Below are positions 8,352 to 27,509 of a DNA stretch of 64,000 nt, piece by piece. The position numbers were made by a program, and so were the translations under genes. Within the stretch, counting starts at the first letter, position 1. Each line of letters opens with the position of its first letter. Origin of the DNA: a virus; the IMG/VR virus record IMGVR_UViG_3300009636_000004, positions 37,790 through 101,789 of that record; one strand, given 5' to 3'. The notes beneath the pieces are model-generated. The model did not search any database. It was not told the origin of the DNA and worked only from the letters and a program-made list of their open reading frames with translations.

Positions 8352-8731
8352 ATTATATCAGGATTTTCAAAAATATTACCAATAATTTTGTAAAGATAAT
8401 CTTTACAAAGATGATTATTATGAAAGTCGTATAATCTTTTTCTTACTTTTACACGAAATCCAAATCCACAAAAAATAATATTTCCTTTACATATTCTAGT
8501 AGAATAAGGAGGCCCATCTTCTTGTTCAATCCATTCTACTATATCCCCTTCAAAAATTTCTTTATCACATCTATCTTTTAATCCCGTGAATAATTGAACT
8601 ACTGAATTTTGGGGATTAAGTGAGTTTTCACAAATCAATTCTCCCCTAACTGAAATACCCAAAAAATCACGGGGATTACCCCATTTATTTAAAAGTTTAT
8701 CCCATACTCTGAATTTTATAGTTCTGTTCAT
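8333..8731 (-). CDS. YopX-family protein
   Basis: Opens with RTIKFRVWDKLLNKW and contains QLFTGLKD, IFEGDIVEW and IIGNIFENPD near the C-terminus, the ordered motifs of the YopX family (PF09643) common in phages and prophages. 132 aa is the usual size. Function unknown in the family; members are early phage proteins. Overlaps the PRPP synthetase start by 4 nt. Confidence 0.85.
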   Translation of the reverse strand: MNRTIKFRVWDKLLNKWGNPRDFLGISVRGELICENSLNPQNSVVQLFTGLKDRCDKEIFEGDIVEWIEQEDGPPYSTRICKGNIIFCGFGFRVKVRKRLYDFHNNHLCKDYLYKIIGNIFENPDIICPHIS

Positions 8732-9723
8732 GTGAATAATTCGCTGACACTTTCATTATTGTGAATGTTTTTGATGGCTGTAGCAAATAAAGGTGAAACA
8801 TCCACTATAATTATTTTATTCTCACAACTATAAATTACAGCATTTTTACCATAACCAGAATCATCACCGTATAATTCCCATTTTTTATCAAAATTAACAG
8901 AGTTAGATACAAAAAGTTTCTCAATCAAACCGTTTTTGAATGCATCAATGAGTCGCTGATAACCTGTATCGGTAAAACATCCGTGTGAAATAGCACAATA
9001 AATTTTTACTGCGCCTTCTTCTTTACAAGCAGTTGCCGCTTCAACCAATGTTCCGGCTGATTCGGTAAGGTCATCAACAATAAGAACTTTCTTACCTTTA
9101 ACATCACCAATGAAATGTTTTACTTCAACCGAAGTTTCGTTGGTTCGTTTTTTTGAAATAATTACCAAATCAGTTTTTAGAGCAGTAGCATATTCTTCTG
9201 CACGTTTTACTGCTCCAACATCAGGACTTACCACAGCTTTTATTCCAATGTCTTTTATAACATTTATAAGAGCTGGTCTGAAAGATAATTGGTCGACAGG
9301 CAAATTAGTAAAACCAACTATTTGAGGGGAATGAAGGTCCATCGTAAGAATACGATTAACACCAGATGCCTTTAATAAATCCATTACTAATCTAGCAGAA
9401 ATAGGAACACGGCTTTTATCTTTCCTATCCTGTCTAGCATAACCGAAATAGGGAATAACAGCAGTAATGCGCCCAGCCGAAGCCCGGCGTGCGGCATCAC
9501 ACATCACCAAAAGTTCCATAAGGTTGTCATTGACTGGTAATGAAGTGGATTGAATCAAAAAGACATCATTACCACGAATATTTTCCTTAAATTGACAATA
9601 TCTTTCACCACTTGGAAACGTTTTTAAATCAATCCTTCCTACAGGAATTGACAAACAACTGTTTCTCGAAAGGCAGATTTTTTCAACTAACGGTTTATTG
9701 GAACTACCTGAAAATATTTTCAT
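8728..9723 (-). CDS. prs: Ribose-phosphate pyrophosphokinase (PRPP synthetase)
   Basis: Transfers pyrophosphate from ATP to ribose 5-phosphate, giving PRPP. Motifs in order: FPSGERY, IPYFGYARQDRK, ILTMDLHSPQIVGF, SPDVGAVKRAEEYA and the PRPP loop VDDLTESAGTL. 331 aa, slightly longer than bacterial Prs because of a C-terminal extension. PRPP is the co-substrate of the nicotinate phosphoribosyltransferase two genes away. A homologous phage enzyme (Adps of the NARP1 pathway) instead pyrophosphorylates ADP-ribose; that substrate cannot be excluded here. Confidence 0.9.
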   Translation of the reverse strand: MKIFSGSSNKPLVEKICLSRNSCLSIPVGRIDLKTFPSGERYCQFKENIRGNDVFLIQSTSLPVNDNLMELLVMCDAARRASAGRITAVIPYFGYARQDRKDKSRVPISARLVMDLLKASGVNRILTMDLHSPQIVGFTNLPVDQLSFRPALINVIKDIGIKAVVSPDVGAVKRAEEYATALKTDLVIISKKRTNETSVEVKHFIGDVKGKKVLIVDDLTESAGTLVEAATACKEEGAVKIYCAISHGCFTDTGYQRLIDAFKNGLIEKLFVSNSVNFDKKWELYGDDSGYGKNAVIYSCENKIIIVDVSPLFATAIKNIHNNESVSELFT

Positions 9724-9726
9724 AAT

Positions 9727-10002
9727 TTATTCTTTTTCATCATCATCATCATCTATACCCAAATCTGCTTCTTCACCACCAAATTCTTCAAGAGCTTGTT
9801 GAATGGTAAATGAAGTTCCATATTCAAAATTAATATTATCGAGAGATGAAATAAAATCATTATATGCTTCAGCAAACATCGAATAAGCTTCTTTATATTT
9901 TTTTTCTAATCGAAGTCGTTGTTGGATAATCTTTAGCATCCAAGGTGGATATACTTCTTTACCAATCTTTCCAATTTTCGATTGTTTAGATTTTGCTTTC
10001 AT
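9727..10002 (-). CDS. Small protein with acidic tail, 91 aa
   Basis: A Lys-rich start, a central helix rich in Tyr/Glu and an Asp/Glu-only tail. It is packed between prs (3 nt away) and the kinase-phosphatase gene (1 nt away), so it is in the same operon. Not recognised. Confidence 0.6.
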   Translation of the reverse strand: MKAKSKQSKIGKIGKEVYPPWMLKIIQQRLRLEKKYKEAYSMFAEAYNDFISSLDNINFEYGTSFTIQQALEEFGGEEADLGIDDDDDEKE

Positions 10003-10003
10003 G

Positions 10004-10942
10004 TTATTTACAAAATTCGCTTATATGAGCAAATTTAAATCCACATCGTTCTGCAAATGTTCTGTCAGTTGTTTGGTCGCCCACCATAATACAATCAGAG
10101 GGGCACAGTTTGTATTTTTCAATAAAAATTGCTCCCATACCGACATGCGGTTTTCTACAATAGCAAGATACAGGAGGAATACTGTGTTGGCAATATAAAA
10201 AGTCAACTTTGATACCAAGTTGCCGGTTCGTTTCCTCAAAACATTGAACTGCCATATCCTCTGAAATAATTCCTTTGGCAATGCCTGATTGATTTGATGC
10301 TCCAAGAATAATAAATCCATTATCTTCTGCTTCTTTCACAATATTGGTCATTTTAGGATTTACTTTAATTTCTGAAAGTTTCGTTGGATAATCATATTCT
10401 CCAAGACTTTCACGAAGAACACCATCATAATCCAAAATAATAGCTTTATGCTTGTATTGAGCCGGCCAAATTCTTTTGAAAGGAACTTCAATTATTTCAT
10501 CAAACCCTTCTTCGGTTGTAGGTGGTTGAAATATTTTTCTGTAATGAAAAAGAGCTGCTGGTGGAAAAGCATTTGGGTCTTTCAATTTCTTAAAATCGTC
10601 TGGGCCGGGAAGTATTCCATATTTCCTAATCATCCGAAGGCAAACATTTAATTGTGCTTCTTCAAGAGAAGTAGTCAACCAATGACAGGTGATTTTGGCT
10701 CGTAATTGTTTTGCCAATTTAATGATAGAAGAACGGCTTTCTCTTGTTGGATAGGTATTATCAAGAACAACCTTTTCAACGCCATTAACAAGAGCATCTT
10801 CTACTATTTCTGTTTGGCCTTTAATACTACCACCTGTCATATCACGGTTAATTCTTTGATAATCGTCTTTGACAAATTGTTCAACCAATGTGCTTTTACC
10901 AGCAGCATTGATACCCATTACTATGATAATGTGTTTACTCAC
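10004..10942 (-). CDS. Bifunctional kinase / HAD phosphatase of the polynucleotide kinase type
   Basis: N-terminal P-loop kinase (Walker A GINAAGKST, 10-18; NRDMTG with Asp34 as candidate general base) followed by a HAD phosphatase (DYDGVLR with Asp171/Asp173, GASNQSG, CRKPHVG, MVGDQTTD). Kinase-then-phosphatase is the order of T4 Pnkp, which heals 5'-OH and 3'-phosphate or cyclic phosphate ends. The CxH...CxCRKP stretch is the zinc-binding loop of GmhB/HisB-type HAD enzymes. It therefore likely repairs RNA or DNA ends, but a small-molecule kinase/phosphatase remains possible. Overlaps pncB by 4 nt. Confidence 0.78.
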   Translation of the reverse strand: MSKHIIIVMGINAAGKSTLVEQFVKDDYQRINRDMTGGSIKGQTEIVEDALVNGVEKVVLDNTYPTRESRSSIIKLAKQLRAKITCHWLTTSLEEAQLNVCLRMIRKYGILPGPDDFKKLKDPNAFPPAALFHYRKIFQPPTTEEGFDEIIEVPFKRIWPAQYKHKAIILDYDGVLRESLGEYDYPTKLSEIKVNPKMTNIVKEAEDNGFIILGASNQSGIAKGIISEDMAVQCFEETNRQLGIKVDFLYCQHSIPPVSCYCRKPHVGMGAIFIEKYKLCPSDCIMVGDQTTDRTFAERCGFKFAHISEFCK

Positions 10943-12102
10943 AGAATTCCCAACTGTTTTTTAACTGATTGAATTGATTCTGACTTTCCTGTATGTTTTC
11001 CTTCATCATCAGAAAGTTTTACTACATCAACCCATCCTTTACCAAAATTAGCCCGTGTCATTTTAATAACCATATTAAGAGGCTTGACACCAACATCGTT
11101 GGTAAGATTTGTTCCAATACCACCAACAGGTTGAGCTACACTTTGAAAAGTTTTTGCTAATTCAATGTATTTTTCAACATTAAGATTATCTGAAAATACA
11201 AATCGTTTATTGGTTGTCAAAATTCCCAAATTTTGATAATGTTTTAACATTCTATATCCCCATTCTTTGGGATTTCCACTGTCTTGACGAACTCCATCAA
11301 ATAGTTTTGCTTCAAACATTTCAAAATCATTTAAAAACATTTCGGTAGTAAATGTATCAGTTAATGCTACACCAAGAGCACCACCAAAATGTTCACTCCA
11401 GAGTTTTACCCACATTTTATTAGCCATTCTGACTCCATATAAAGCTGACATAGCCATTATACATTCATGAGCATAAGTTCCTTGTGGAGTGACACCATGC
11501 TTCATTGCTAAATGAGGATTACTTGTTCCAAGAAATCCCTTGTAGTTTTTCATTATTTCTACAACTCTGTCTTGGACTTCATACGAATAACGTCTGCGTG
11601 TTCCAAAATCAATCCAATAACATCCGTTATTTGAAAGTTTTTTGGCTTTCTCAATTATTCTAAGATACCAGAGATTTATTTTTTCTTGGTTAGTTATTAG
11701 AAAATATAATTCAGAAATAATAGCCATGAGTTTGACTTCCCAAAAAATGGTGCGATACCAAGGCCCACGGATTTTAACTTTGAGATCGCCACCTTCTTGG
11801 CTAATTTGAACTTCATCAGGATACATCGTGTAACCTAATAACCATTCAGCGTAAGTAGGACGAATATAAGGAATGGTTTTGAGCCATCTTTCTTCTTTTT
11901 TGGTCAAACGGAGCCAAGTTAATTCATGGATTTGGTGATTTAATTCTTCGGCAAATCCTTCGGGAAAAGGCGTTTTTCCACGGTTGATAAATTCGTATTC
12001 AACTTCAGCATTTGGGAAGTTGTGAAATACCACACTGCCCATAGTGAGCTTATACCAATCGTCATCCAACATCGAAATAATTATAGGTCTGTCAACAATC
12101 AT
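10939..12102 (-). CDS. pncB: Nicotinate phosphoribosyltransferase
   Basis: Converts nicotinate + PRPP (+ATP) to nicotinate mononucleotide, the entry step of the Preiss-Handler route. Diagnostic motifs: DDDWYKLTMG (13-22), DFGTRRRYS, GTSNPHLA, GTYAHE (with the His phosphorylated in the family), LTDTF and FDGVRQDSGNP. 387 aa fits E. coli-type PncB; the motifs are not those of NadV/NAMPT. The gene starts 6 nt after its -10 element and is followed by overlapping kinase-phosphatase and prs genes. Confidence 0.95.
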   Translation of the reverse strand: MIVDRPIIISMLDDDWYKLTMGSVVFHNFPNAEVEYEFINRGKTPFPEGFAEELNHQIHELTWLRLTKKEERWLKTIPYIRPTYAEWLLGYTMYPDEVQISQEGGDLKVKIRGPWYRTIFWEVKLMAIISELYFLITNQEKINLWYLRIIEKAKKLSNNGCYWIDFGTRRRYSYEVQDRVVEIMKNYKGFLGTSNPHLAMKHGVTPQGTYAHECIMAMSALYGVRMANKMWVKLWSEHFGGALGVALTDTFTTEMFLNDFEMFEAKLFDGVRQDSGNPKEWGYRMLKHYQNLGILTTNKRFVFSDNLNVEKYIELAKTFQSVAQPVGGIGTNLTNDVGVKPLNMVIKMTRANFGKGWVDVVKLSDDEGKHTGKSESIQSVKKQLGIL

Positions 12103-12108
12103 AGTGAC

Positions 12109-12136
12109 AGTATATCAGAGGATTATAAAAAGTCAA
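12109..12136 (-). promoter_or_regulatory. Leaderless-type promoter of pncB
   Basis: -35 TTGACT (12131-12136), 16 bp, extended -10 TGATATACT (hexamer 12109-12114). The start codon begins exactly 6 nt after the -10, so the normal start site falls on or next to the A of ATG. Confidence 0.82.
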
Positions 12137-12160
12137 GCGTAACGGAATAAGTAGAAGAAA

Positions 12161-13451: not shown

Positions 13452-15179
13452 TTACTTTCTTTTAATTTGATGAATAGTGTTACCATTGATAAAGAAAACT
13501 CCATCGGGTGTAGAAAACAGTTTCATTGAATTATCAAAAGGAGCATCCTTCAATACTTCTACATGCTGATTATTGACAAACATTTCCAAATCGCCATCTT
13601 CATTAAGTAATAGACATACTCCGTTTTCCATGACCGCGAAATTTATAGTATTCACGGTTACATCTTCTACTTTGCGAACGTCAAAATCACTATAATCTTT
13701 TTTGAATACAATTATGAATTTGTCATATTTACCATTCTTTTCTGCTATAATTACAGTAACGGTTTTTTCAGATTTAGCATCTACCACTCTATATCCATCT
13801 AATTGAGGAATATGTTTGCTAAAACAACCATCTTCTTTGTATGGTAATGTTAATAGATAATTACCTAATAAATTTTGAATAGCACATCCTTCATAAACGG
13901 TAGTAGCATAGACCGAAACGTTTTCTATTTCATTTACACGATGAATAATTCTATCACCCATTGCGGTAAATTTGTTTTTTACCAACTTACCATTACCACT
14001 CATGGTATAGACACAGTTATTTCTTACAAAAATATCTTTGCTGGCAATAGTTCCAACTTCTCTTTGCCTGTTTAATTCAGTAAAAGTGACTTTAGTGCCA
14101 GATAAACTAGCAACAATGATAGTCCCATCTGAAGCCGGACAAAGGAGAGTTTTTCTTACTTTTTCACAACCACTCATGAGTTCTTTATCATCACAATAAA
14201 TCTTCTTGGTTGTAACAACGTGATTCAAGCCCATTGATTGAATAACACTTACAATGTTTTCACTATAAGCAGCTACTTGGATAACATCAATTTGATTGTT
14301 ACCTTTAATAGTAACAATAGCAGCCGGAACTGTAAGAGGCGCTAGACTATCTGGTAAGGGTGGAACACTTCGTTCATTTCTAAGAAATATTGCCTCATAC
14401 CAATCATAGTGTCTTTTAGGTATTACGTTGAAACTATTGACACTCGGGGGAACTTTTACACCACGATGGAAAACACTGATACCATCATCCATTTGTTTCT
14501 GTTTGTCTTTAGGTTTATAATGTGGATGTCCGCCCCTAAACGGATGAATATTAGTATATAACCAAAAACTTAATATGCCCCACGAAAACCAATCTGAAAG
14601 AATGTCAGGATTATATATAAGTTTTCCATTGACGTGTGTTGACACTCTCCTATCTCTTACACTATCCATAATGGCGGTGGCCTTAAAGCTTGGAGTTGCA
14701 TAACTGTCAACATCAATAAAATACGGTGTCAAGACTGTTGGGGTGAGATTCACCAACACATTAAGCTCATTAAAATCAACAATCAAACAATGAGCGCCGT
14801 GAATGTCATTGGTAGTCAACTGCAATTGTTTAACCAATTCTGCAATCATTTGCGGGTCAATATTGTTGTCTTGTTTAAAGGTGCGGGTAAATAATTTTAA
14901 TAAAGGTTCAACATTATCAATATAATTGGCTATATAACCTAATGGGTCACCAGAACTTGCATCAAAAATCAAATCTTGTGGAACTACCACGTGCGGGTCA
15001 GTAATGAGTGATAATTCTTGTATCTTTCTTAAAGGTAGTGTTTTGTGAGAATCATGATAAATCTTGAAAACTTTTCCACCGTTGACATAAATGGATGCTT
15101 CACCACCAGCCGCTTTATAATATTTGTCAGTAAGAGTAAATATTCCGCCCCTACTTCCTATTTTGACTTTTTTATTCAT
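13452..15179 (-). CDS. Protein kinase-like protein with C-terminal repeat domain (TerY-P triad kinase)
   Basis: Residues 15-260 form a protein kinase-like domain: Gly-rich GGEASIY (25-31), Lys39 in KVFKIY, catalytic-loop equivalent IVDFNELNVLV (Asp135, Asn140), DFG equivalent FIDVDSY (Asp156) and DWFSWGILSFWLYTNIHPF as helix F-like region. Residues 290-575 show repeated short beta strands, compatible with a beta-propeller sensor. Together with the PP2C and vWA genes upstream it forms the kinase/phosphatase/vWA set called the TerY-P triad in tellurite-resistance-type stress systems. The fusion to a propeller-like region is unusual. Confidence 0.75.
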   Translation of the reverse strand: MNKKVKIGSRGGIFTLTDKYYKAAGGEASIYVNGGKVFKIYHDSHKTLPLRKIQELSLITDPHVVVPQDLIFDASSGDPLGYIANYIDNVEPLLKLFTRTFKQDNNIDPQMIAELVKQLQLTTNDIHGAHCLIVDFNELNVLVNLTPTVLTPYFIDVDSYATPSFKATAIMDSVRDRRVSTHVNGKLIYNPDILSDWFSWGILSFWLYTNIHPFRGGHPHYKPKDKQKQMDDGISVFHRGVKVPPSVNSFNVIPKRHYDWYEAIFLRNERSVPPLPDSLAPLTVPAAIVTIKGNNQIDVIQVAAYSENIVSVIQSMGLNHVVTTKKIYCDDKELMSGCEKVRKTLLCPASDGTIIVASLSGTKVTFTELNRQREVGTIASKDIFVRNNCVYTMSGNGKLVKNKFTAMGDRIIHRVNEIENVSVYATTVYEGCAIQNLLGNYLLTLPYKEDGCFSKHIPQLDGYRVVDAKSEKTVTVIIAEKNGKYDKFIIVFKKDYSDFDVRKVEDVTVNTINFAVMENGVCLLLNEDGDLEMFVNNQHVEVLKDAPFDNSMKLFSTPDGVFFINGNTIHQIKRK

Positions 15180-15182
15180 CCG

Positions 15183-15404
15183 TTATAGTCCCTGTAATTT
15201 ATCTTTGTATCTTTCATGGGCGTTATCAATCATTGAACCCCAGCAATCGGCCAACGCATCACTGTAAATTTTTAGTATTTCATCTTGTGTGAATTTATAT
15301 CCACATTCATCACATTCTTCACTCCAGTCAACCATGTGTTCACCCACATCAACTTCAGCAGTGATTTGTTCATCACATTTTGGACAATGAAAGGAGTAAT
15401 ACAT
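15183..15404 (-). CDS. Zinc-ribbon protein, 73 aa
   Basis: Two Cys pairs, CPKC (8-11) and CDEC (35-38), form a single zinc ribbon; the rest is acidic and helical. It sits 3 nt before the kinase gene, inside the triad operon, so it may be an accessory factor. No family recognised. Confidence 0.6.
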   Translation of the reverse strand: MYYSFHCPKCDEQITAEVDVGEHMVDWSEECDECGYKFTQDEILKIYSDALADCWGSMIDNAHERYKDKLQGL

Positions 15405-15405
15405 A

Positions 15406-15702
15406 TTATTTCATTTTCTTTCTAGATTTATGAGGTTCATATTTTTTATTTGTTACGTTGATATAATCTTCTTTACTTCGTTGCCAAATATCATCACGTC
15501 CTTTTACAGCAAAAGACAATGAACCACAACCTGAATTGACAGATTCTATAGTGTCAAATGCAATATATTTTAATTTTCTTGGTAAATAAATTAAAGCATC
15601 ATCGTTATCACCAAGACAAATTATTTTAGCATTTAAAATGATTGTTCCATAGGAAAGACAATCAATATCTTCGTTTTTACTTATTCTATATTTAATTTTC
15701 AT
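15406..15702 (-). CDS. Hypothetical protein, 98 aa
   Basis: Mostly beta-strand prediction, ending in a basic tail (KSRKKMK). It overlaps the PP2C stop by 4 nt, so it is translationally coupled within the triad operon. Not recognised. Confidence 0.58.
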   Translation of the reverse strand: MKIKYRISKNEDIDCLSYGTIILNAKIICLGDNDDALIYLPRKLKYIAFDTIESVNSGCGSLSFAVKGRDDIWQRSKEDYINVTNKKYEPHKSRKKMK

Positions 15703-16517
15703 ACAACAATTGCTGCCATTGAAATGTCATCATAATGACTGATTTGGGTTTTAATCCATTGTCTTTTCAAAAATGAAAGTCTTCTCTGAACAAAAACACC
15801 GGGTGTGGTTTTAAAGTCAATAAAGTAGCGGGCGATAGCTTCCCAAGGAATTGTAGAACCATCAGCAGTGGTAAAACTGTTGACACCATCTGAACAAATA
15901 GCTATAATATCATTTTCTTCAACCAACCCTTTAAATGTAACAGGTTCAAATGGTTTAACATAAGTTTCATTTTCAATTACGTCACCTGATTGGCTGTCTG
16001 AGGTTTCACCTGTATATATGGAAATATCCAATATTTTTTTGGAACCTAAAACTGTTTTTTCGTATTCCCATAAGCGAAGTTTATCAAGATAGTAGGAAAG
16101 ATATGCTGGACAATTACCTTCAAAATTTACGTGGACGAGACGAATATTTGTGGCGGTTTTATGAAAGAAAACTCCATCACCATACATGTGAACTGTAAAT
16201 TTCTTATCTTTCACCCATGCAACTAACAAAGTAGAATCCAAAGAATGAGGATGAAGCGGAATTGTGTCACCAATATGTTCAAGATTTCTAATAGTAACTT
16301 TACCAAACAAATCATAATTCATATCACTGCCACCAATTGATAACGTTCGCTTTGCTGACAAAGCTAATGCTCTTGCTCCAAAATCCACGTCAGGACTTGA
16401 GGAACAACCATCACAGACAATAGCATAAGAACTGTTACTGTCAATCGCATTACTTAAAGCATAATCTTCACAAATTGTATGTCCATGTCCGATGGAAAAA
16501 TAGTGGTCGGCGTTCAT
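15699..16517 (-). CDS. PP2C-type protein phosphatase
   Basis: Mn/Mg-dependent Ser/Thr phosphatase fold: ICEDYALSNAI for the first metal Asp, AIVCDGCSSS for the DG metal motif, LLVAWVKDKKFTVHMYGDG in the core, IICSDGVNSF for the third metal site and HYDDISMAAIVV for the DD motif at the C-terminus. Predicted to reverse the action of the adjacent kinase. The start used is ATG at 16517; an in-frame GTG at 16562 would add 15 residues but would place a perfect 11 bp hairpin in the coding region. Confidence 0.8.
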   Translation of the reverse strand: MNADHYFSIGHGHTICEDYALSNAIDSNSSYAIVCDGCSSSPDVDFGARALALSAKRTLSIGGSDMNYDLFGKVTIRNLEHIGDTIPLHPHSLDSTLLVAWVKDKKFTVHMYGDGVFFHKTATNIRLVHVNFEGNCPAYLSYYLDKLRLWEYEKTVLGSKKILDISIYTGETSDSQSGDVIENETYVKPFEPVTFKGLVEENDIIAICSDGVNSFTTADGSTIPWEAIARYFIDFKTTPGVFVQRRLSFLKRQWIKTQISHYDDISMAAIVV

Positions 16518-16533
16518 ATGATTATTAGAAGTG

Positions 16534-16558
16534 GGGAAGGGAATTACATTCCCTTCCC
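16534..16558 (-). other. Perfect inverted repeat between vWA and PP2C genes
   Basis: GGGAAGGGAAT-GTA-ATTCCCTTCCC, 11 bp stem, 3 nt loop, lying between the vWA stop and the PP2C ATG. There is no T-tract after it, so it may be an attenuator, an mRNA processing or stabilising hairpin, or an operator, rather than a classical terminator. Confidence 0.6.
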
Positions 16559-16585
16559 TCACAGTGATTATGCACTTGATATTTA

Positions 16586-17335
16586 TTAAAACTTAAAGGA
16601 ACTAATCGGTTGGCTTGGAGCACCGCTACCCAATGCTGAACTTGTCGAACTGATTGATTGACTGACGAAGGCTGCCAATTTGGCAATTTTTCCGGGGGTA
16701 GCTTTGCCTATCGAAACATATTGTGTTATTCCAGCCTTCGTAACCATATCCTGCAAATAAGCATCAAGGTTGGTATCATCCGTGGTGACACCAACAAGGA
16801 TAAGGGTAATACTTTCAAGATTTTCACTCTTGCGGGCTTCTTCAAGGGATTTCTTAATTTGTGCCGCATCGTAAATGTTACCGCTGTTGTTTTGACTATC
16901 TGTAACCACCACTATAATGGCGTTGACAAGAAAGTTTTGACTGGTCAATTGTTTTCCATAAGTCGAAGTAGCTTGAATACTTTCATCAACTGCGTCGAAT
17001 AGAGCTGTCATACCGCCAATACTCAAAATATTGTCGTAATCATGCTCTTGAATAGAACCCAACAACTTAAAACCGTGAAGTTCTTTCAGGTTGTCGTTGA
17101 ATTGGGTAAGTCGAAGCATAAGGTTATCCTTACGCGGGGACTTCTCCATTGCTTTTAAAATTGTCTTGATAGCTTGCTCCAAATTAGCAGCAAAGCCAGA
17201 CACGGAACCACTGGCATCTTCAACAATCGTTGCCAAGGTGTATTCAGCCGCCCCAAGTTTGTTAATCTTGGTAGCGCTGAATTTGTAATTAGAACCCGCG
17301 TTTAGCATTTCTAGGTCTTTATCCATTAAGCTCAT
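16586..17335 (-). CDS. TerY-like von Willebrand factor A protein
   Basis: A vWA fold from about residue 30 to 220 with a MIDAS DxSGS motif (EDASGSVSG, about 38-46), a Thr in the second metal loop (about 108-114) and IVVVTDSQNNSG for the third. TerY-type vWA proteins pair with a PP2C phosphatase and a kinase, the two genes downstream here. Base composition is less AT-rich than the surroundings, as in the 199 aa gene at 5.3 kb, which may mark high expression. Confidence 0.78.
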   Translation of the reverse strand: MSLMDKDLEMLNAGSNYKFSATKINKLGAAEYTLATIVEDASGSVSGFAANLEQAIKTILKAMEKSPRKDNLMLRLTQFNDNLKELHGFKLLGSIQEHDYDNILSIGGMTALFDAVDESIQATSTYGKQLTSQNFLVNAIIVVVTDSQNNSGNIYDAAQIKKSLEEARKSENLESITLILVGVTTDDTNLDAYLQDMVTKAGITQYVSIGKATPGKIAKLAAFVSQSISSTSSALGSGAPSQPISSFKF

Positions 17336-17368: not shown

Positions 17369-18181
17369 TTACCAATCTTTCGAGGTAGTGAGCTTCATGC
17401 CCTTGTTAGCCATTTCAAGAACGAAGTCTCGTCCAAGTTTTTCAAATCCACCCACATTAGAAGATGTATCTTTCAATAGGGTGAATTTTTTAACATTATC
17501 CACACCGAATTGTTTGGCTACATCGTAAATTGTGTTAGCAACACAATGACTTAATGCTTCGCCGGTGATAAGAATTTCATCAGCCTCAGTTAAAGCATCA
17601 ATCAAATTGGTGTTCAACTTGGTGCTAGGGTCATTATCATCCGGCACGTCAGCTTGAACACCGCTATAGTGTTCTGTGAAAAAGTTGGAACCTTTGGCAA
17701 CAAAGTTCACTCTGTCAAAACCATTTTCCCATTCATAGAGAGCCTTTGCAACCGAAGGAACAATACTATGCCCCCAAGTTCCAATTAAACAGTGGGGTGG
17801 CCAAATACACAAAACATATCGTTTGTTTTTGGCAAGTGTTTCAACATAAGTCTGTGCTCTTGCCTGCCACCGTGGATTAAATGTTCTCCATACACCGTTT
17901 TTTACATCGTCAACAGTAATAACAGTAAACGGATTTGGATGTTCACCTTTGGAATTAACCCAAAAAATAGGGTGAGCAATATGAACCAATTGGTGAGAAT
18001 CAAGGGTACAGTGAATTTGCTCAATTCTTTTCCCGTTTTTTGTAATAAATGTGGCTAACCGTTCCATATCGGTATCAGCGCCACCGACAACCAATGCCCC
18101 CTTTTCCCCACCGGGGCCATTTGGGATGCAGAAATCATTCTGCGGGTCAATCATCAATAGATGGATTTTTCTTGCACTCAT
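17369..18181 (-). CDS. pncA: Nicotinamidase
   Basis: Hydrolyses nicotinamide to nicotinate and ammonia. Isochorismatase-fold motifs: LLMIDPQNDFC (catalytic Asp about 12), the metal site TLDSHQLVHIAHP, and the nucleophile region GEALSHCVANTIYD with the catalytic Cys. 270 aa, longer than bacterial PncA (about 210) because of inserted loops, closer to fungal-size enzymes. It feeds nicotinate to PncB and sits one gene from a Nudix hydrolase and two from nadM. Confidence 0.85.
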   Translation of the reverse strand: MSARKIHLLMIDPQNDFCIPNGPGGEKGALVVGGADTDMERLATFITKNGKRIEQIHCTLDSHQLVHIAHPIFWVNSKGEHPNPFTVITVDDVKNGVWRTFNPRWQARAQTYVETLAKNKRYVLCIWPPHCLIGTWGHSIVPSVAKALYEWENGFDRVNFVAKGSNFFTEHYSGVQADVPDDNDPSTKLNTNLIDALTEADEILITGEALSHCVANTIYDVAKQFGVDNVKKFTLLKDTSSNVGGFEKLGRDFVLEMANKGMKLTTSKDW

Positions 18182-18226
18182 AGTTTTATTTTTTCCTTTT
18201 TGTCTGTTTGTTGTTAACTGTGACAG

Positions 18227-18255
18227 ATCATATCAGACTTTTTCTAATCTGTCAA
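18227..18255 (-). promoter_or_regulatory. Promoter for pncA
   Basis: -35 TTGACA (18250-18255), 17 bp, extended -10 TGATATGAT (hexamer 18227-18232). It lies over the 3' end of the Nudix gene. The leader of about 38 nt includes AAAGGA close to the pncA start. Confidence 0.68.
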
Positions 18256-18667
18256 ATCGCATCTTTAACTGTCCGATAATTTCTTTTAGACCGGGCATTA
18301 AATCCAATTTCAACGCTTCATCACAAGTCATCAATATCCAATCGCCTGTTTTTTCATTTTCAATTCTCAAGGGAATTTCTGTTTCATTTAATTCAATTAA
18401 ATAAACAAAACAAACGTCTGTAGTTGGGTCATCAAAAATAGCGTCCACGTATTCCAATCTTTTTGTGTCAATTTCAAGACCCGTTTCTTCGGTAACTTCT
18501 CTGATACCACTCTCTACTGGATTTTCTCCAATCTCCAATTTACCACCTGCAAATTGCCATCTACCAGAAAAATTTATAGTATTTTTTCTTTGTGACATAT
18601 AGATGCAGTTTCTAAAGAGTAAGCCGACTGTCACTGTATGTCTTACTGTATGCCTTGTGTATTTCAT
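18233..18667 (-). CDS. Nudix hydrolase, 144 aa
   Basis: The full Nudix box is present: GGKLEIGENPVESG then IREVTEETGLEI (about 39-64), with all catalytic Glu residues. Nudix enzymes split nucleoside diphosphates linked to X; candidates here are ADP-ribose or oxidised dNTPs. It begins 1 nt after nadM, so the two are probably co-translated, favouring an NAD-linked substrate such as ADP-ribose. That substrate is an inference. Confidence 0.82.
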   Translation of the reverse strand: MKYTRHTVRHTVTVGLLFRNCIYMSQRKNTINFSGRWQFAGGKLEIGENPVESGIREVTEETGLEIDTKRLEYVDAIFDDPTTDVCFVYLIELNETEIPLRIENEKTGDWILMTCDEALKLDLMPGLKEIIGQLKMRFDRLEKV

Positions 18668-18668: not shown

Positions 18669-19595
18669 TTAAATTCTATTCAATATTTTATCAACGACAA
18701 GTCCTTTTAACATTCTAAAAAGGACACGGTGTTCTTCAATGAACATATCTTCTCTTAAAGCTTGTAAAGTCACCCATTCCACTTCAGCAATATCATCATC
18801 TGCTGTGGGAGTTCCTGAAACATAATCACAAATAAAGAAGATTGTTTTGATTTTATTTCTTTCATTCTCAAAGCGCCAATCTCTTATTCGAGAGCTTCCA
18901 ATATATTGAAAGTTATCACATTCCAAATGAGTTTCCTCATTTGTTTCCCTTTTAGCATCATCTTCATAAGATTCTGAATCAGGATGAGCAAAACCACCAA
19001 CAAATCTAAGCAATTTCTGGTTAGATTTACGGCAAAGAAGAACACGAGTATTATCTCTATCAAGAATTGCTATGTCAACCGTAGGGAGAGCACTAGGCCA
19101 TTGATTCTCAACAGCCCAAATAACGCCCTCCCGAAATTGTGGAGTAGCCTTTGATTTGATTCCTACATTCTTTCTGATTTCTTTGCCTGAAATATATTTG
19201 TTAGGAACCAACTCTTCTGTAGGGTATTTTCCATGATAATGTGGAATAAAACTATCACGGCTTCCATAGAGAACTACTTTTTGATTGGGGCCAATTTGTG
19301 AGGTAATTATTCTATCTAATTCCTTACTCCAAAGTTCATCGTTTCCAACGTCTTTGATATAAAGAACTTCAACGGTAGGAAACTCCTTTTCTACCATTGC
19401 TTTACGTGTGGGAAAATCAAGAGGATTATTGTAGGTGCATTTACATGCATCAGCAGCTAGACCAAGAATAACAAACACTCTAGGATGAATGCTTAAAACT
19501 CTTTGAATAAGAGCTTTATGTTCTTCATGAAGTTCTGGAACCTGAAAGCGAGCGACGATTGCGCCTACTTCTGCTGTTTCATTTACTGTTTTCAT
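18669..19595 (-). CDS. nadM: NadM-Nudix: NMN adenylyltransferase fused to Nudix (ADP-ribose pyrophosphatase-type)
   Basis: The N-terminal part (about 8-165) is a NadM-type nucleotidyltransferase: VGAIVARFQVPELHEEHK in the GRFQPFHxGH position, where the second His is displaced by an HEEH variant, and YISGKEIRK for the ISGTxIR motif. The C-terminal part (about 175-305) has a Nudix box VGGFAHPDSESYEDDAKRET then NEETHLE. This fusion is known from cyanobacteria and Francisella, where it makes NAD(or NaAD) and cleaves ADP-ribose. Fits between PncB and NadE in the pathway; preference for NaMN over NMN is not readable. Confidence 0.88.
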   Translation of the reverse strand: MKTVNETAEVGAIVARFQVPELHEEHKALIQRVLSIHPRVFVILGLAADACKCTYNNPLDFPTRKAMVEKEFPTVEVLYIKDVGNDELWSKELDRIITSQIGPNQKVVLYGSRDSFIPHYHGKYPTEELVPNKYISGKEIRKNVGIKSKATPQFREGVIWAVENQWPSALPTVDIAILDRDNTRVLLCRKSNQKLLRFVGGFAHPDSESYEDDAKRETNEETHLECDNFQYIGSSRIRDWRFENERNKIKTIFFICDYVSGTPTADDDIAEVEWVTLQALREDMFIEEHRVLFRMLKGLVVDKILNRI

Positions 19596-19662: not shown

Positions 19663-19670
19663 CATTATTA

Positions 19671-19698
19671 ACTATATCACAATCTTTGAAAATGGCAA
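19671..19698 (-). promoter_or_regulatory. Promoter for nadM
   Basis: -35 TTGCCA (19693-19698), 16 bp, extended -10 TGATATAGT (hexamer 19671-19676). Confidence 0.65.
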
Positions 19699-19743
19699 TT
19701 TTATTTCACGGTGAATAAATATATAAAGCTTTTCATAACTTAA

Positions 19744-20214
19744 TTAAATGTAATCATATTCATCATCATGTTCAGTTTTCTTTAAACTTATCTCCAAATC
19801 TACTTTAAGTAAAGCTTTGTTTAATTTAAAAAGAATATGTCTAAGACCGGGAACTAAATCTAAAACAACTGCAGCATTCATTTTAAATAATTTCCAATCC
19901 GAACGGTCTGTTACACCATTATTATTGGTAGGAACTTCGTGTTCTTTAAGATGAACAAGATAAACGAAGTAAAATTCATCGGCTGCATCTATGGTAATTG
20001 AACCAATGTAATGAAGCTTACTCCCTGCGATTATTAGCCCTGTTTGGTCTTGTGCAATTCTAATAGAAGCTGTATGCCCATTTTCGCCTTGTTTCATTGC
20101 ACCATTGACAAATTGCCACTTTTTAGGAAAGAGAGGGGTGTCAATTCGTCTGGATAGATAAATGCCTCTGTCTTTGACAAGACCAACTGCTACGCCGTAT
20201 GTTGTGGTGCCCAT
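19744..20214 (-). CDS. Nudix-fold protein with degenerate catalytic box
   Basis: The start MGTTTYGVAVGLVK at 20214 is preferred over the frame's upstream ATG, which lies inside the -10 element. The Nudix box region reads GAMKQGENGHTASIRIAQDQTGL: the first Gly and Glu remain, but REUxEE has become RIAQDQ, removing most metal-binding Glu residues. It resembles the 144 aa Nudix protein in length and flanking strands (WQF, LVPGLRHIL). Probably a catalytically dead or re-purposed paralogue, for example a ligand sensor. Confidence 0.7.
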   Translation of the reverse strand: MGTTTYGVAVGLVKDRGIYLSRRIDTPLFPKKWQFVNGAMKQGENGHTASIRIAQDQTGLIIAGSKLHYIGSITIDAADEFYFVYLVHLKEHEVPTNNNGVTDRSDWKLFKMNAAVVLDLVPGLRHILFKLNKALLKVDLEISLKKTEHDDEYDYI

Positions 20215-20233
20215 AATTTTTAATCGCTTAAAA

Positions 20234-20261
20234 AGCATATCACCATTTTATATTTTGTCAA
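20234..20261 (-). promoter_or_regulatory. Promoter for the degenerate Nudix gene
   Basis: -35 TTGACA (20256-20261), 16 bp, extended -10 TGATATGCT (hexamer 20234-20239). It stands back to back with the dCMP deaminase promoter, forming a divergent promoter region. Confidence 0.7.
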
Positions 20262-20307: not shown

Positions 20308-20316
20308 ATGTTAAAT

Positions 20317-20877
20317 ATGGAATTATCACAAAAATATCTTGATTCAATTGGCCCTGAATTTAAAGATTACATACCGCCATCTTGGGATGTATTATTCATG
20401 AAAATGGTTTATCTTGCTTCAACAAAAAGCAAAGATACTAAAACAAAAATAGGAGCGGTTATTGTTGGTCCAGACCACGAACCAATTAGTTTCGGATTTA
20501 ATGGATTACCAAGAAAAGTAAATGACCATGTACCTGAAAGATATGAACGACCAAAAAAATATTTGTTTTTTGAACACGCAGAGAGAAATGCAATCATTTC
20601 TGTAGCTAGAATGGGTGGTTCAAGTTTAAAAGGCTGCATAATGTTCACTCATGGTTTGCCTTGTGCTGATTGTGGAAGAGCAGTAATTCAATCAGGTATA
20701 ACAACGGTTGTAACTCACGAACCTTGGGAGTTGATTTTTGCCCATCTTTATGACACATGGAAAGATTCGTGTTATGCAACTTATGAAATGTTTAAAGAAG
20801 CTGGAATAGAAACTAGAACTGTTAAAGAATTTCTTGGTGTTCAAGGATTTATAAATGGAAAAATCATCAATGTATAA
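20317..20877 (+). CDS. dCMP/deoxycytidylate deaminase-type protein
   Basis: Zinc-dependent cytidine deaminase fold with HAERNAI (His/Glu catalytic) and GLPCADCGRAVIQSG (PCxxC). These match dCMP deaminases, which make dUMP for thymidylate synthesis; ThyX is also encoded (39.2-40.0 kb). About 186 aa. The start at 20317 is chosen because the upstream ATG (20308) touches the -10 element. It is the first plus-strand gene in the window. Confidence 0.85.
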   Translation: MELSQKYLDSIGPEFKDYIPPSWDVLFMKMVYLASTKSKDTKTKIGAVIVGPDHEPISFGFNGLPRKVNDHVPERYERPKKYLFFEHAERNAIISVARMGGSSLKGCIMFTHGLPCADCGRAVIQSGITTVVTHEPWELIFAHLYDTWKDSCYATYEMFKEAGIETRTVKEFLGVQGFINGKIINV

Positions 20878-20994: not shown

Positions 20995-21474
20995 ATGAGT
21001 TCATTAGTTCACTACAATCGAAGAAATCCAGCCCTTTACAACATGGATGAATTTCTAACACCATTCTCATCACTCTTCAATGATATTTATAATAGTCTAT
21101 CAGACGGCTCTGAATGGCTAAATCTTAAATTATTGGATAAGACTTCTTATCCAAGAGTTGATATTGTTGAGGAAGATGATAAGATTATCATCACTGCAGA
21201 AATACCGGGTCTGACAAAGGACCAAATTTCTGTTGAATTGGTTGATGGTATTCTTCGTATCAAAGGAGAAAAGAGGGAAGAATCGGAAGATAAGTCAAAG
21301 AAATATATCTACCGAGAGTTAAAGCATTCTTCATTCTGTCGTTCTTTTGTTGTCGGGGACCATATTGATAAGGAAACCATAGGTGCATCATTTGAAAATG
21401 GTGTCTTGAAGGTTACTTTGAAGAAGACCGTTCCAACGCCGAAGGTAGAACCAAAGAAAATTGAAGTCAAGTAA
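20995..21474 (+). CDS. Small heat-shock protein (Hsp20/alpha-crystallin)
   Basis: The alpha-crystallin domain spans about 45-150: YPRVDIVEEDDKIIITAEIP, LVDGILRIKGEKREE and the closing ASFENGVLKVTLKK. A short C-terminal tail lacks a clear IxI/V motif except KIEV. 159 aa, normal size. A holdase chaperone; phage Hsp20 proteins are known in T4-like cyanophages. Preceded by a clear AAAGGA ribosome site 8 nt upstream of ATG, which is rare in this window, and followed by a strong terminator, so it is probably highly expressed. Confidence 0.92.
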   Translation: MSSLVHYNRRNPALYNMDEFLTPFSSLFNDIYNSLSDGSEWLNLKLLDKTSYPRVDIVEEDDKIIITAEIPGLTKDQISVELVDGILRIKGEKREESEDKSKKYIYRELKHSSFCRSFVVGDHIDKETIGASFENGVLKVTLKKTVPTPKVEPKKIEVK

Positions 21475-23652: not shown

Positions 23653-23730
23653 TGGTACTGCTGGCGGGATTCGAACCCACTAAATCCAGTTTAGAAGACT
23701 GGTGCCTAATCCGATTCGTGCCTCAGCAGC
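23653..23730 (-). tRNA. tRNA-Arg(TCT)
   Basis: Acceptor GCTGCTG/CAGCAGT, discriminator A, encoded CCA; anticodon arm CCAGT-CTTCTAA-ACTGG gives TCT; T-arm GTGGG-TTCGAAT-CCCGC. The D-stem is weak, with only two clear GC pairs. AGA is a favoured Arg codon in this AT-rich DNA. Confidence 0.85.
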
Positions 23731-23747: not shown

Positions 23748-23775
23748 AGTATATACGAGGTTGAGAAAAAGTCAA
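23748..23775 (-). promoter_or_regulatory. Promoter for the Arg tRNA pair
   Basis: -35 TTGACT (23770-23775), 16 bp, -10 TATACT (23748-23753). Predicted start is about 11 nt before the mature tRNA-Arg(TCT) 5' end. Confidence 0.75.
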
Positions 23776-23778
23776 GCC

Positions 23779-24270
23779 TTATCTTGGCCCATCCATATCC
23801 ATGCTTCCCCAAACTTTTATATGTTCCTTAAATACATATTTGGAATATTCTGCTTCTGATATTTTCTTTAAAGCTCTCAGAGAAGTTGAACTTATATGCT
23901 CAAATTTCTTGTCACAAATGAAAAATACTGTTTTAAGAGGGGGATACATTCCTTTAATAAATTCAAGTTGATTCTGCTCATATTGAAGGTCATCACCATT
24001 TCTAAGACCACGAATAAGGAAAATTTCATCTCCGTAAGATGTTAATTCAGTCAAATAATCTGAAAGTAATCCTTCAAAAACAACCACCTTTGCACCTTTC
24101 AAAATTGGATTACCGGTAGGAAATTCTTCTTTTGTATCATTTTTTATTGGATTTTGACCGATAGCTATAATTACTTCATCAAACACTTCTTGAGCTTGGT
24201 GTAGAATGTTTGCATGTCCACAATGAAAAGGATTAAAACTTCCAGCATATACACCAATTTTTTTACTCAT
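23779..24270 (-). CDS. coaD: CoaD-like phosphopantetheine adenylyltransferase
   Basis: Nucleotidyltransferase fold: VYAGSFNPFHCGHANIL (HxGH), IFLIRGLRNGDDLQYEQNQ (CoaD signature RGLRxxxDxxYE), HISSTSLR for ATP binding. This pattern indicates 4'-phosphopantetheine adenylyltransferase (CoA synthesis) rather than NaMN adenylyltransferase. 163 aa as in bacteria. The C-terminus ends in GSMDMDGPR, closely echoing the C-terminus of the unrelated 77 aa protein at 43517-43750. Confidence 0.82.
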   Translation of the reverse strand: MSKKIGVYAGSFNPFHCGHANILHQAQEVFDEVIIAIGQNPIKNDTKEEFPTGNPILKGAKVVVFEGLLSDYLTELTSYGDEIFLIRGLRNGDDLQYEQNQLEFIKGMYPPLKTVFFICDKKFEHISSTSLRALKKISEAEYSKYVFKEHIKVWGSMDMDGPR

Positions 24271-24590: not shown

Positions 24591-24599
24591 AACTATATT

Positions 24600-24627
24600 A
24601 TTTTATCACCAAGTTATAAATTGTCAA
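24600..24627 (-). promoter_or_regulatory. Promoter for zinc-ribbon/coiled-coil/coaD genes
   Basis: -35 TTGACA (24622-24627), 16 bp, extended -10 TGATAAAAT (hexamer 24600-24605). Confidence 0.75.
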
Positions 24628-24630
24628 GTA

Positions 24631-25383
24631 TTATGTTTTGAGAGTACATTTGAGATTTCCACAAACAGGACAAGATTTACCAATGGGTTTTATATCATTG
24701 GCAATACCATATTTTTTCAATTCTTTATGAGAAAGTTGACGTTTTAAGACAATTTTAACATGGGGAAAATCTTTCCAAATATAATAATACCTTGGTTTGT
24801 CAAAAGAACCAATCAAACGTTCTCTTGGTCCTCTTTGTTCATAAAGATTATCGTAGAAAGAATTTTCTATAATTTTGCCTTTCACTTCATACCAAATACC
24901 ATCAAATTTAAGTAATTGGTGATAGTCACCTAATATACGAAAAGTTTTGGCTTCTTCTTCCTCTTGTATTTTTCTATAATTTACTTTCTTTGGTTTGTAA
25001 TGACAAAGAATTTTGGTTTTGGGATGAACATAAAACATTTCTGAATAAGAATAATAACTTTCATTACATCTTTCAATTGGTCGTTCATTGCCACCAAAAC
25101 CTTTGGCAAAATACCAAACTTTACCATCTTTTATAAAAGTATTGAGAATAACAGAACAACTAATTTGTTCTTGAGTTCTATATTGACGGGGAATCCATTC
25201 CAAGTGAACAAATTCAGAAAACACCCTGTCCCAAGGTTTGCCAATTCTTGAGGTTAAGAAGCGATAAACCTTTTTCCAAGGATAATCTTTTCCATGTTCA
25301 TACCAATTGCTACGGGAGCGAAATTTGGCATGATTAGGAAGGTCGTCAACAACTTCTGGATGTTCGTAAATGAGATTTTTCAT
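24631..25383 (-). CDS. Hypothetical protein, 250 aa, C-terminal zinc knuckle
   Basis: Aromatic- and Lys-rich protein ending in GKSCPVCGNLKC, a one-sided zinc site. The N-terminal half includes PWKKVYRFLTSRIGKPWDRV and a run of Tyr/Trp-rich strands. Similar large proteins with this pattern occur in phages but no function is known. It has its own promoter, 11 nt from start to -10. Confidence 0.6.
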   Translation of the reverse strand: MKNLIYEHPEVVDDLPNHAKFRSRSNWYEHGKDYPWKKVYRFLTSRIGKPWDRVFSEFVHLEWIPRQYRTQEQISCSVILNTFIKDGKVWYFAKGFGGNERPIERCNESYYSYSEMFYVHPKTKILCHYKPKKVNYRKIQEEEEAKTFRILGDYHQLLKFDGIWYEVKGKIIENSFYDNLYEQRGPRERLIGSFDKPRYYYIWKDFPHVKIVLKRQLSHKELKKYGIANDIKPIGKSCPVCGNLKCTLKT

Positions 25384-25394
25384 TACGAATAAAT

Positions 25395-25422
25395 ATTATA
25401 TCAGAATTGTATAAGAAGTCAA
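25395..25422 (-). promoter_or_regulatory. Promoter for the 250 aa gene
   Basis: -35 TTGACT (25417-25422), 16 bp, perfect extended -10 TGATATAAT (hexamer 25395-25400). The -35 lies over the last codons of nadE. Confidence 0.8.
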
Positions 25423-27509
25423 GCGTTACTTCCACCAAGAACAATCGGTTTTTTGACAAATACTATGAGTTCTTCTAGTTCTTCCTCATATCCACCTGTA
25501 AGAATTGGTGTTCTACACCATGTTCGGGGGTCAAGATTATGGTCGTCCATGTGGAAACTCAAAGCATATCGTTCACGTTTCCATTGGTTCCTTGAAAACA
25601 ACTTAAAGAATTTGGTAATATCTTTGATTAATTGATTGTTATCATAATCAATCGAAATCCTCAATGATTGATAGATTTCAAGAGGCGTGTAACGGTTTTT
25701 TACAACCATCGTTTCAATCTTGTGTAATAACCAATAAGGCATTAAGTCATCTTCATCGGTCTGTTTGTAGCTTGCTGGACGAAGTTCAGCCGTAGGCTGT
25801 TGTTCAACAATAGCATACATCTCCGTTGTTGGGCCAATGTTTCTTGGACCGGTATAGGCAACCCAAGCTAAAAATTCACGGATATAAACCTTTGGTAATC
25901 CAGCGATAGGTGCTACACTTCCTGCGGTGTCACCATCCATTGTTGCGTAACCAACTGCCGCTTCTGACATATTGCTTGTCGTCAATAATAGAGTTCCCTT
26001 CATATTGGCAATCATCCAAATGCCGGGAGCGCGAACACGAGCTTGAAGATTCTGTAAAACAATATCATTTTCTTCAAAGGTCAATTCACTTCCCTTGACA
26101 ATTTTACCTAGATTCTTATAATTCTTTACCATCGGTTCAACGTCAAATTCATAATGAGGAATATTTAGAGCTTTCGCCAATCCCTTAGCGGCGTTTCTTG
26201 TAATTTCTCCACTCTGAGCTGTTGATTGATAAGCGGTAGTAATTAAAGATTTAGTAATTCTGCGAATAAATTCATTTTCTGTTTTAGCATTGACGATATT
26301 AAAAATTCCATCATTTTTAACGTGAGGACAATATTTTTCAATAAATCCCACCACTCCCAATTCTTTTACTCCAAGATGAATTCCCATAGCACAAAGATAT
26401 ATCACCATTGCCGAATCGGCTCCACCACTTAACGAAATAGTAAAACCTTTCGTGTGACTCTTTCTCATGTAATCCATCAAAGCTAACCCAAGAGCACGAA
26501 CACATTCTTCATGTTTTACAAAGCCGGTAGAAAATTTATCTATTTCCCATTCCTCTTGTTCTGGACTGGTCGTAAGTTGTTCTGTAATAGTAGGATACCT
26601 GAAATCAACCTTAACACAACCTTGATTGTATTGTTCAATATTTGGTTGAAAACTTGCTGTGCGAACTTGTGAAGTTCGTGTATTATCAACATCAATAACT
26701 GCTGTGGTTAATAAAACATTCTTATAAGTAAAACGTTTTCCAATAGCTACCAAAGAACCACCTGTAGCAATTAAAGCTCCACCGTCATAAATTGCCCGTC
26801 CGGCTTCATTACCAACAAGATTAGCATAAACGTATGTAGCTCCAAATGCTCGTGAACCGTCAACAACGAAATTTTTTCGTGTGTTTAGTTTATTAAAAGA
26901 AAAGTGTGAGGCACTAGGATTGAGATAAATATCAACTCCCTTGGTAGCCAAAACTGTTCCCGGTCTATTGGCAACCCAAGCATCTTCACAAATTTCATAT
27001 CCGATTTTGATGCCTCCAATATTAAAATGAATATCACCAATAGGAAAATCTCCACCAAGTTCAGGAATATTTATAATTTGGACTATACCAGATGGCCAAG
27101 GTTTATACCAACGATTTTCGTAATGAATACCATCACCAGCCAAGTGTTGTTTACAAGTAAATCCTACAACTTTTCCATAGACTACAGTGGCAACAGTATT
27201 GTAAAGAGTGTTATTGAATCTTACAGGTAACCCAATACAAACAATTAAGTTGTCACATAAACGATTATATCCATTTGTATTAGGAGTGTTTATAATCTCT
27301 TTCAATTTTATCATCGCTCTATGAGAAACATCAGAGCAGAAAAGGTCATCTTCCATTCCATAGCCTGTGATGGTCGCTTCAGGAAGGCAAAGAATAGTAA
27401 CATTTTCATTTTTAGCTGTTTTAATTGCTTCAAGAATATTAGCCATATTCCCCTTCCAATCACGGGGAGTTTGATTCAATACCGCAGCAGCAACTTTAAT
27501 CAGCTTCAT
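25419..27509 (-). CDS. nadE: Glutamine-dependent NAD+ synthetase
   Basis: Makes NAD+ from nicotinate adenine dinucleotide, ATP and glutamine. The N-terminal nitrilase-type glutaminase (about 1-290) shows the E-K-C triad: CLPEATITGYG, TCKQHLAGDG and GYEICEDAWV. The C-terminal synthetase (about 330-690) has the PP-loop ISLSGGADSAM and the NaAD site TSNMSEAAVGYATMDGD. 696 aa, the normal size of two-domain NadE. This last step needs no host amidotransferase because the glutaminase is fused. Leaderless-type promoter 6 nt upstream. Confidence 0.96.
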   Translation of the reverse strand: MKLIKVAAAVLNQTPRDWKGNMANILEAIKTAKNENVTILCLPEATITGYGMEDDLFCSDVSHRAMIKLKEIINTPNTNGYNRLCDNLIVCIGLPVRFNNTLYNTVATVVYGKVVGFTCKQHLAGDGIHYENRWYKPWPSGIVQIINIPELGGDFPIGDIHFNIGGIKIGYEICEDAWVANRPGTVLATKGVDIYLNPSASHFSFNKLNTRKNFVVDGSRAFGATYVYANLVGNEAGRAIYDGGALIATGGSLVAIGKRFTYKNVLLTTAVIDVDNTRTSQVRTASFQPNIEQYNQGCVKVDFRYPTITEQLTTSPEQEEWEIDKFSTGFVKHEECVRALGLALMDYMRKSHTKGFTISLSGGADSAMVIYLCAMGIHLGVKELGVVGFIEKYCPHVKNDGIFNIVNAKTENEFIRRITKSLITTAYQSTAQSGEITRNAAKGLAKALNIPHYEFDVEPMVKNYKNLGKIVKGSELTFEENDIVLQNLQARVRAPGIWMIANMKGTLLLTTSNMSEAAVGYATMDGDTAGSVAPIAGLPKVYIREFLAWVAYTGPRNIGPTTEMYAIVEQQPTAELRPASYKQTDEDDLMPYWLLHKIETMVVKNRYTPLEIYQSLRISIDYDNNQLIKDITKFFKLFSRNQWKRERYALSFHMDDHNLDPRTWCRTPILTGGYEEELEELIVFVKKPIVLGGSNA

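Follow-up and report, generated by a model that had tools for sequence, protein, structure and literature searches.

The 64,000-nucleotide window analysed here (positions 37790-101789 of the 101.8-kb IMG/VR virus record IMGVR_UViG_3300009636_000004) carries, by gene content, a complete deamidating (Preiss-Handler) route from nicotinamide to nicotinamide adenine dinucleotide (NAD+). The nicotinamidase of this route, PncA, heads a conserved operon, PncA-vWA-PP2C-kinase, which was overlooked in the original prediction made from this DNA and is the more surprising part of the finding. The window-region proteins were all matched with 100% identity in a 365,299-base IMG/VR contig that carries the same NAD block; because this contig encodes identical proteins across the whole region, the window must come from a huge phage with a genome of 365 kb or more. 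Relatives of the NAD genes occur in the huge phages LR756500, LR756501, and LR756511 (462-735 kb), among others.

All six open reading frames (ORFs) that had been proposed as salvage genes were present, all on the minus strand (Table 1). The two-domain NadE combines CN_hydrolase and NAD_synthase domains, scores 97 bits against TIGR00552 (cut-off 63.65), and, of the proteins with solved structures, most resembles 3ilv, a glutamine-dependent NAD synthetase (545 bits). It retains the glutaminase triad motifs PEA(43), CKQHLAG(119), and GYEICED(170) as well as the synthetase loop SGGADS(361). PncB lies above the cut-offs of both TIGR01514 (390 bits) and PRK05321, and Prs, the phosphoribosyl pyrophosphate (PRPP) synthetase, above those of TIGR01251 (330 bits) and PRK01259 (348 bits). 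Prs also retains the canonical motifs for ribose 5-phosphate, ATP, and the PRPP loop. PncA scores only 24 bits against PF00857, below the cut-off of 27, and a PF00857 search of its own genome at an E-value of 0.001 returned no match, a null result that reflects a divergent protein and not an absent one. The best solved matches of PncA are nicotinamidases, and a 14-sequence alignment shows no variation at either its catalytic triad (D12/K163/C213) or its metal ligands (D61/H63/H70/H130). Active-site motifs are thus intact in Prs, PncB, PncA, the stand-alone Nudix hydrolase, and NadE.

The sixth protein, NadM-Nudix, is recognised in Pfam by its Nudix domain only, in which the box is intact (GGF...RETNEET). 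Its adenylyltransferase half gives weak NCBIfam and PHROG matches, the NCBIfam score lying far under the equivalog cut-off, and carries the nucleotidyltransferase motifs ARFQ...LHEEH and SGKEIR. The top solved matches of the predicted model are the bifunctional nicotinamide mononucleotide (NMN) adenylyltransferase/ADP-ribose pyrophosphatases 2qjt, 2r5w, and 2qjo; its mean per-residue confidence (pLDDT) is 78 and its predicted template-modelling score (pTM) only 0.48, so that the domain arrangement is uncertain. The motifs agree with the predicted fold, and on this combined ground we identify the protein as a NadM-Nudix fusion. A third Nudix-fold protein (19744-20238, minus strand) has a degenerate catalytic box, in which RExxEE reads RIAQDQ, and is kept beside NadM in relatives.

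Every step of the deamidating route therefore has a family match and intact motifs, in line with the claim of a complete gene set. PncA would convert nicotinamide to nicotinate, which PncB would join to PRPP from the phage Prs to give nicotinate mononucleotide (NaMN); NadM would adenylate NaMN to nicotinate adenine dinucleotide (NaAD), and NadE would amidate NaAD with glutamine to NAD+. Neither NadV nor a Namat-like protein was found in the 101.8-kb record or the 365-kb contig, both of which may be incomplete, and the NAPRTase/NAMPT family (PF04095) is represented in each by one protein, PncB. On the strength of these two absences we read the set as deamidating and, as had been proposed, distinct from both NARP1 and NARP2, the former distinction being drawn also from the canonical family scores and motifs of Prs. 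As in NARP1 (Adps plus Namat), NAD+ would be restored from nicotinamide and ADP-ribose could be reused, but the window has no Namat-like transferase and the sugar would re-enter as ribose 5-phosphate or PRPP. A fused NadM-Nudix is common to the window and to NadV-NadM salvage (Vibrio phage KVP40; NARP2 type), whereas NadV makes NMN in one step and the window would use PncA and PncB together with NadE.

The original prediction also had ADP-ribose split by the stand-alone Nudix hydrolase, which it called intact. The Nudix box of this protein is indeed complete, but it is MutT-like, and for that reason the step is better given to the Nudix half of NadM; the stand-alone protein was not relied on as an ADP-ribose enzyme. 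A relative of it adjoins NadM in contig L026. Characterised NadM-Nudix enzymes cleave ADP-ribose, and by analogy an ADP-ribose arm through this half of the phage protein is possible, in which ADP-ribose would probably yield adenosine monophosphate and ribose 5-phosphate that Prs could reuse. We infer that ADP-ribose may be a source of ribose and nicotinamide released by NAD+-consuming (NADase) defences a substrate, with the purpose of keeping up NAD+ during infection, including after such defences have acted. A closed ADP-ribose loop and an anti-defence role are plausible; since every cell has ribose 5-phosphate at its disposal, the loop need not be closed.

In the window, the vWA gene starts 33 nt downstream of PncA, and the PP2C and kinase genes that complete the triad are separated by two small ORFs of the same operon, the 73-aa one bearing two CxxC motifs. 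The metal site of the vWA protein, the metal-site aspartates of the PP2C-type phosphatase, and the kinase residues K39/D135/N140/D156 are all invariant in alignments, and the predicted kinase model (pLDDT 86) resembles kinase-plus-WD40 proteins. Adjoining genes for vWA, PP2C, and Ser/Thr kinase proteins, all with intact active-site residues, recall the TerY-P triad of the Ter and CoCoNuT systems (PMC11090510). The phage triad differs in that its kinase has a predicted beta-propeller where that of TerY-P has a zinc ribbon or an OB fold, in that PncA is a constant partner, and in that the PADLOC defence models gave no match for the triad proteins. Because of this propeller, we class the triad, as judged from sequence and model, as TerY-P-like and not as a TerY-P member.

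A single-sequence vWA search reached close relatives only, and PncA and kinase alignments were needed to go further. Scanning IMG/VR with these gave, after dereplication, 54 viral loci of PncA that had flanks, in which vWA accompanied PncA in 50, PP2C in 48, and the kinase in 46; the triad genes were always on the PncA strand, with vWA a median of 28 nt downstream. Taken from the kinase side, PncA was nearby in 58/64 loci, and four of the other six have PncA farther off on the same contig. In several phages PncB and NadE are interleaved in the operon (e.g., PncA-vWA-PncB-NadE-PP2C-kinase, confirmed with Pfam and NCBIfam). PncB, NadE, NrtR, or NadM stood beside or inside the quartet at 42/87 viral and 13/23 genome loci, compared with only 4/87 viral loci for Prs, which served as a rough control. 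Only the four genes were seen in 30 of the 54 viral loci, PncB or NadE not being recognised nearby.

The quartet is also found in bacterial assemblies. A one-genome-per-species scan placed the kinase in 31 assemblies, many of them metagenome bins that could be phage contigs, and PncA stood beside it in 21 of the 22 with enough sequence. In Bradyrhizobium scaffolds of up to 1.56 Mb (L230, L231, and L232), genes for a Dam methylase, an RNase T-type exonuclease, and a HerA-like protein come after PncA-vWA-PP2C-kinase, and these neighbours suggest that the quartet probably sits in a mobile element of cultured rhizobia. NrtR, a known regulator of NAD genes from an ADP-ribose-responsive repressor family, was near the quartet in 12/23 bacterial-assembly loci and 9/87 viral loci, its winged-helix domain being confirmed in the cases scanned. 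Because this regulator lies near so many of the loci, a place of the quartet in NAD metabolism is very probable. The window itself departs from these bacterial and phage loci in having no NrtR near the quartet. We know of no description of the triad as an NrtR-linked unit. The literature searched, which did not include the main triad reference (Anantharaman 2012), made no mention of a coupling between PncA and the triad.

The pathway is not unprecedented but a further example of the nicotinamide-to-NAD+ sets already known from huge phages. Among its relatives, LR756500 carries PncA, PncB, NadE, and NadM, LR756511 carries PncA, PncB, and NadE, and a 215-kb contig has all steps, namely PncA, PncB, NadE, and a stand-alone adenylyltransferase, plus Prs. 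Li et al. (2024; Microbiome 12:268) are said to have described gut jumbo phages that synthesise NAD independently, reportedly with Preiss-Handler sets among them. The cultured Sinorhizobium phage Phosso (PV764938.1) has NadE-PncB-Nudix-NMNAT-nicotinamidase-like hydrolase within 6 kb (L048, 2575-8216). Its cluster is like the window in bringing together NadE, PncB, a Nudix protein, an NMN adenylyltransferase, and a nicotinamidase-like hydrolase, but its NadE is an ammonia-type single-domain enzyme, its adenylyltransferase and Nudix proteins are separate, its PncA is only distantly similar, and no triad was present within the 9.2 kb examined. Its compactness makes it a convenient model in a cultured phage. 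Four enzymes leading from nicotinamide to NAD+ are likewise ascribed to the huge phage 5-SewaE (PMC10747093); in both cases one huge-phage genome carries the enzymes, and the window may differ from 5-SewaE in having NadM-Nudix for the adenylyltransferase step and PncA in a triad operon. For Xanthomonas phage X1, PMC13384950 lists pncB, nadM, nadD, nadE, and NAMPT.

Beyond this phage itself, the nearest full-length NadM (63% identity) is encoded in contig L026, where the order is NadM-Nudix-NadV, compared with NadM-Nudix-PncA in the window; in a tree, NadM of LR756500, which occurs with PncB, pairs with that of LR756502, which occurs with NadV. NadV and PncA/PncB have thus probably been exchanged around one NadM family, and it is on account of this probable swap that we predict NadM to accept, probably, both NMN and NaMN. 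PncA (12 records) and NadV-size proteins (4 records) never occurred together in 20 records (chance 0.014), a sample that was chosen by these genes and in which many records are fragments.

Taken as a whole, the data are best explained by deamidating salvage in a huge phage, with the vWA-PP2C-kinase triad as a proposed phosphorylation switch that would tune the nicotinamidase or the flux through salvage, and we regard this explanation as likely. Several points weigh against it: the link between triad and enzyme comes from gene order only, the stand-alone Nudix hydrolase is nearest to MutT-type families and not to ADP-ribose pyrophosphatases, the window gives no hint of any particular NADase defence in its host, and the nearest full-length NadM adjoins NadV. 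Given that neighbour, NadM may prefer NMN, and NaMN would then be a poor substrate unless NadE is an NMN synthetase. Such an order of steps, in which NadE would make NMN from NaMN and an NMN-specific NadM would make NAD+ with the same genes, is known from Francisella, which has NadM in place of NadD and, as its homologue of NadE, an NMN synthetase (PMC3376133); the NadM of Francisella, too, is an adenylyltransferase-Nudix fusion (2r5w). In Acinetobacter, however, a dual-specific NadM is paired with a conventional two-domain NAD synthetase (PMC3376133, De Ingeniis et al.), and the phage NadE, two-domain, glutamine-dependent, and nearest to the conventional enzyme 3ilv, is by its sequence of the Acinetobacter kind; we consider the Francisella-type order quite unlikely. 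That the genes disguise a NARP1 system, in which Prs would be Adps and an unrecognised transferase would make NAD+ from ADP-ribose pyrophosphate, is highly improbable. Adps does work in parallel to PRPP synthetase (PMC12774641), but Prs keeps the canonical motifs and exceeds its family cut-offs (it was set apart from Adps without direct sequence comparison), the Namat-like partner is missing, and the sole NAPRTase/NAMPT-family protein is a true PncB.

The purpose of the set could also be general metabolic support, with NAD+ raised for phage replication (DNA ligase, repair, and redox) in a nutrient-limited host and counter-defence secondary or absent. Prs and a polynucleotide kinase/3'-phosphatase-like (PNKP-like) enzyme adjoin PncB, the pattern of a general nucleotide and cofactor supply block, and NAD genes of other jumbo phages have been interpreted along these lines (PMC13282480, PMC10747093). 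The route nevertheless begins at nicotinamide, the product of NADases, and NARP1 demonstrates the ability of genes of this kind to overcome NAD+-depleting defences (PMC12774641); we give general support, which differs in purpose only, slightly less than an even chance. The quartet might instead be a signalling or defence module of its own, for example for superinfection exclusion, which PncA would serve and whose closeness to NAD genes would be partly incidental. It does travel alone in more than half of the 54 viral PncA loci, and TerY-P-like modules are stand-alone antiphage systems according to PMC11090510 (citing Gao 2020). Against this stand the frequent NAD genes or NrtR beside or inside the quartet, set against the rarity of Prs there, and the lack of a match between PADLOC models and the quartet proteins, and we hold a separate module to be unlikely. 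More tentatively, the preferred switch could be extended to an unrecognised NAD-linked signalling unit of huge phages and bacteria. The triad would sense NAD stress (nicotinamide, ADP-ribose, or metal/energy state) and use reversible phosphorylation to switch deamidation together with the salvage genes attached to it, and phages would thereby rebuild NAD+ when host NADases fire; this is possible, though doubtful.

Phage NAD+ repair has so far been mainly a matter of one- or two-step nicotinamide routes (NadV-NadM, NARP1), and the present set indicates that huge phages would use the longer deamidating route as well, NadV and PncA apparently being swapped around the same NadM. Less expected than the pathway is that, in phages as well as bacteria and often close to NrtR, a nicotinamidase is almost constantly coupled to a triad of kinase, phosphatase, and vWA protein. 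For this orphan signalling triad, which is widespread, the coupling provides a function that can be tested, and it suggests that the deamidation of nicotinamide is under control in the virus-host conflict over NAD+.

Table 1. Features of the NAD block in the window, with the evidence for each assignment.
Feature	Coordinates	Strand	Evidence or remark
Prs, canonical class I PRPP synthetase	8728..9723	-	Family scores and motifs
PNKP-like protein	10004..10942	-	Between PncB and Prs
PncB, nicotinate phosphoribosyltransferase	10939..12102	-	Family scores, best PDB match 2im5, motifs
Promoter-like site of PncB	12108..12138	-	-10 box 6 nt before ATG
Ser/Thr kinase-like domain with C-terminal beta-propeller (predicted), triad gene 3	13452..15179	-	K39, D135, N140, D156 invariant
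Pair of small ORFs (73 aa, 98 aa) between PP2C and kinase genes	15183..15702	-	Same operon
PP2C-type phosphatase, triad gene 2	15699..16562	-	Metal-site D51-G52, D225-G226, D278-D279 invariant
vWA-domain protein, triad gene 1	16586..17335	-	MIDAS D40-S42-S44...T110...D146 invariant
PncA, divergent nicotinamidase	17369..18181	-	Triad, metal ligands, PDB matches
Promoter-like site of PncA-triad operon	18226..18257	-	Leader about 45 nt
Stand-alone Nudix hydrolase, MutT-like, intact box	18233..18667	-	Family scores, motif
NadM-Nudix, nucleotidyltransferase plus Nudix fusion	18669..19595	-	Motifs, weak family matches, predicted fold
Promoter-like site upstream of NadM	19670..19700	-	Promoter-pattern scan
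NadE, two-domain glutamine-dependent NAD synthetase	25419..27509	-	Domains, family scores, motifs, best PDB match 3ilv
Promoter-like site of NadE	27515..27545	-	-10 box 6 nt before ATG, leaderless-type

The shared promoter type ascribed to these genes is real, with sites upstream of NadE, NadM, PncA, and PncB. CTTGAC-N16-18-TGnTATAAT-like sites on the minus (coding) strand number 18 in the window and 0-3 in shuffles. The short distance from the -10 box to the ATG of NadE and PncB implies that their messages would be leaderless. The promoter type GCTTGACTTTTTATA...TGATATAAT recurs on the minus strand, for example at 27543, 25422, 24627, 12136, and 7525, with the ATG following the -10 box by 6-11 nt; together with the lack of a Shine-Dalgarno sequence in most window genes, this spacing suggests leaderless mRNAs for the genes concerned. 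The nearest solved relatives of NadE and PncB, 3ilv and 2im5, come from organisms that we take to be Bacteroidota; a Bacteroidota host was considered from these relatives and the scarce Shine-Dalgarno sequences, but the promoters resemble sigma-70 sites of other bacteria, and no host was assigned.

The PNKP-like protein is probably a repair enzyme and not a part of NAD salvage, and the order PncB-PNKP-Prs is also kept in contig L012. A 163-aa ORF (23779-24270, minus strand) was considered as NadD and rejected: it is CoaD-like (TIGR01510, 92 bits; cut-off 103) and not a NaMN adenylyltransferase. This pantetheine-phosphate adenylyltransferase-like protein has 67% identity in relatives and could be a second cofactor gene. 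Between it and an HNH-like ORF, positions 23656-23730 (minus strand) give an Rfam tRNA match of 45.5 bits that ARAGORN did not report. Within the NAD block, two ORFs run in the opposite direction, and inspection of their translations pointed to a deaminase-like protein with an HAE...PCADC motif (20308-20877, plus strand) and an Hsp20-like protein (20995-21474, plus strand).

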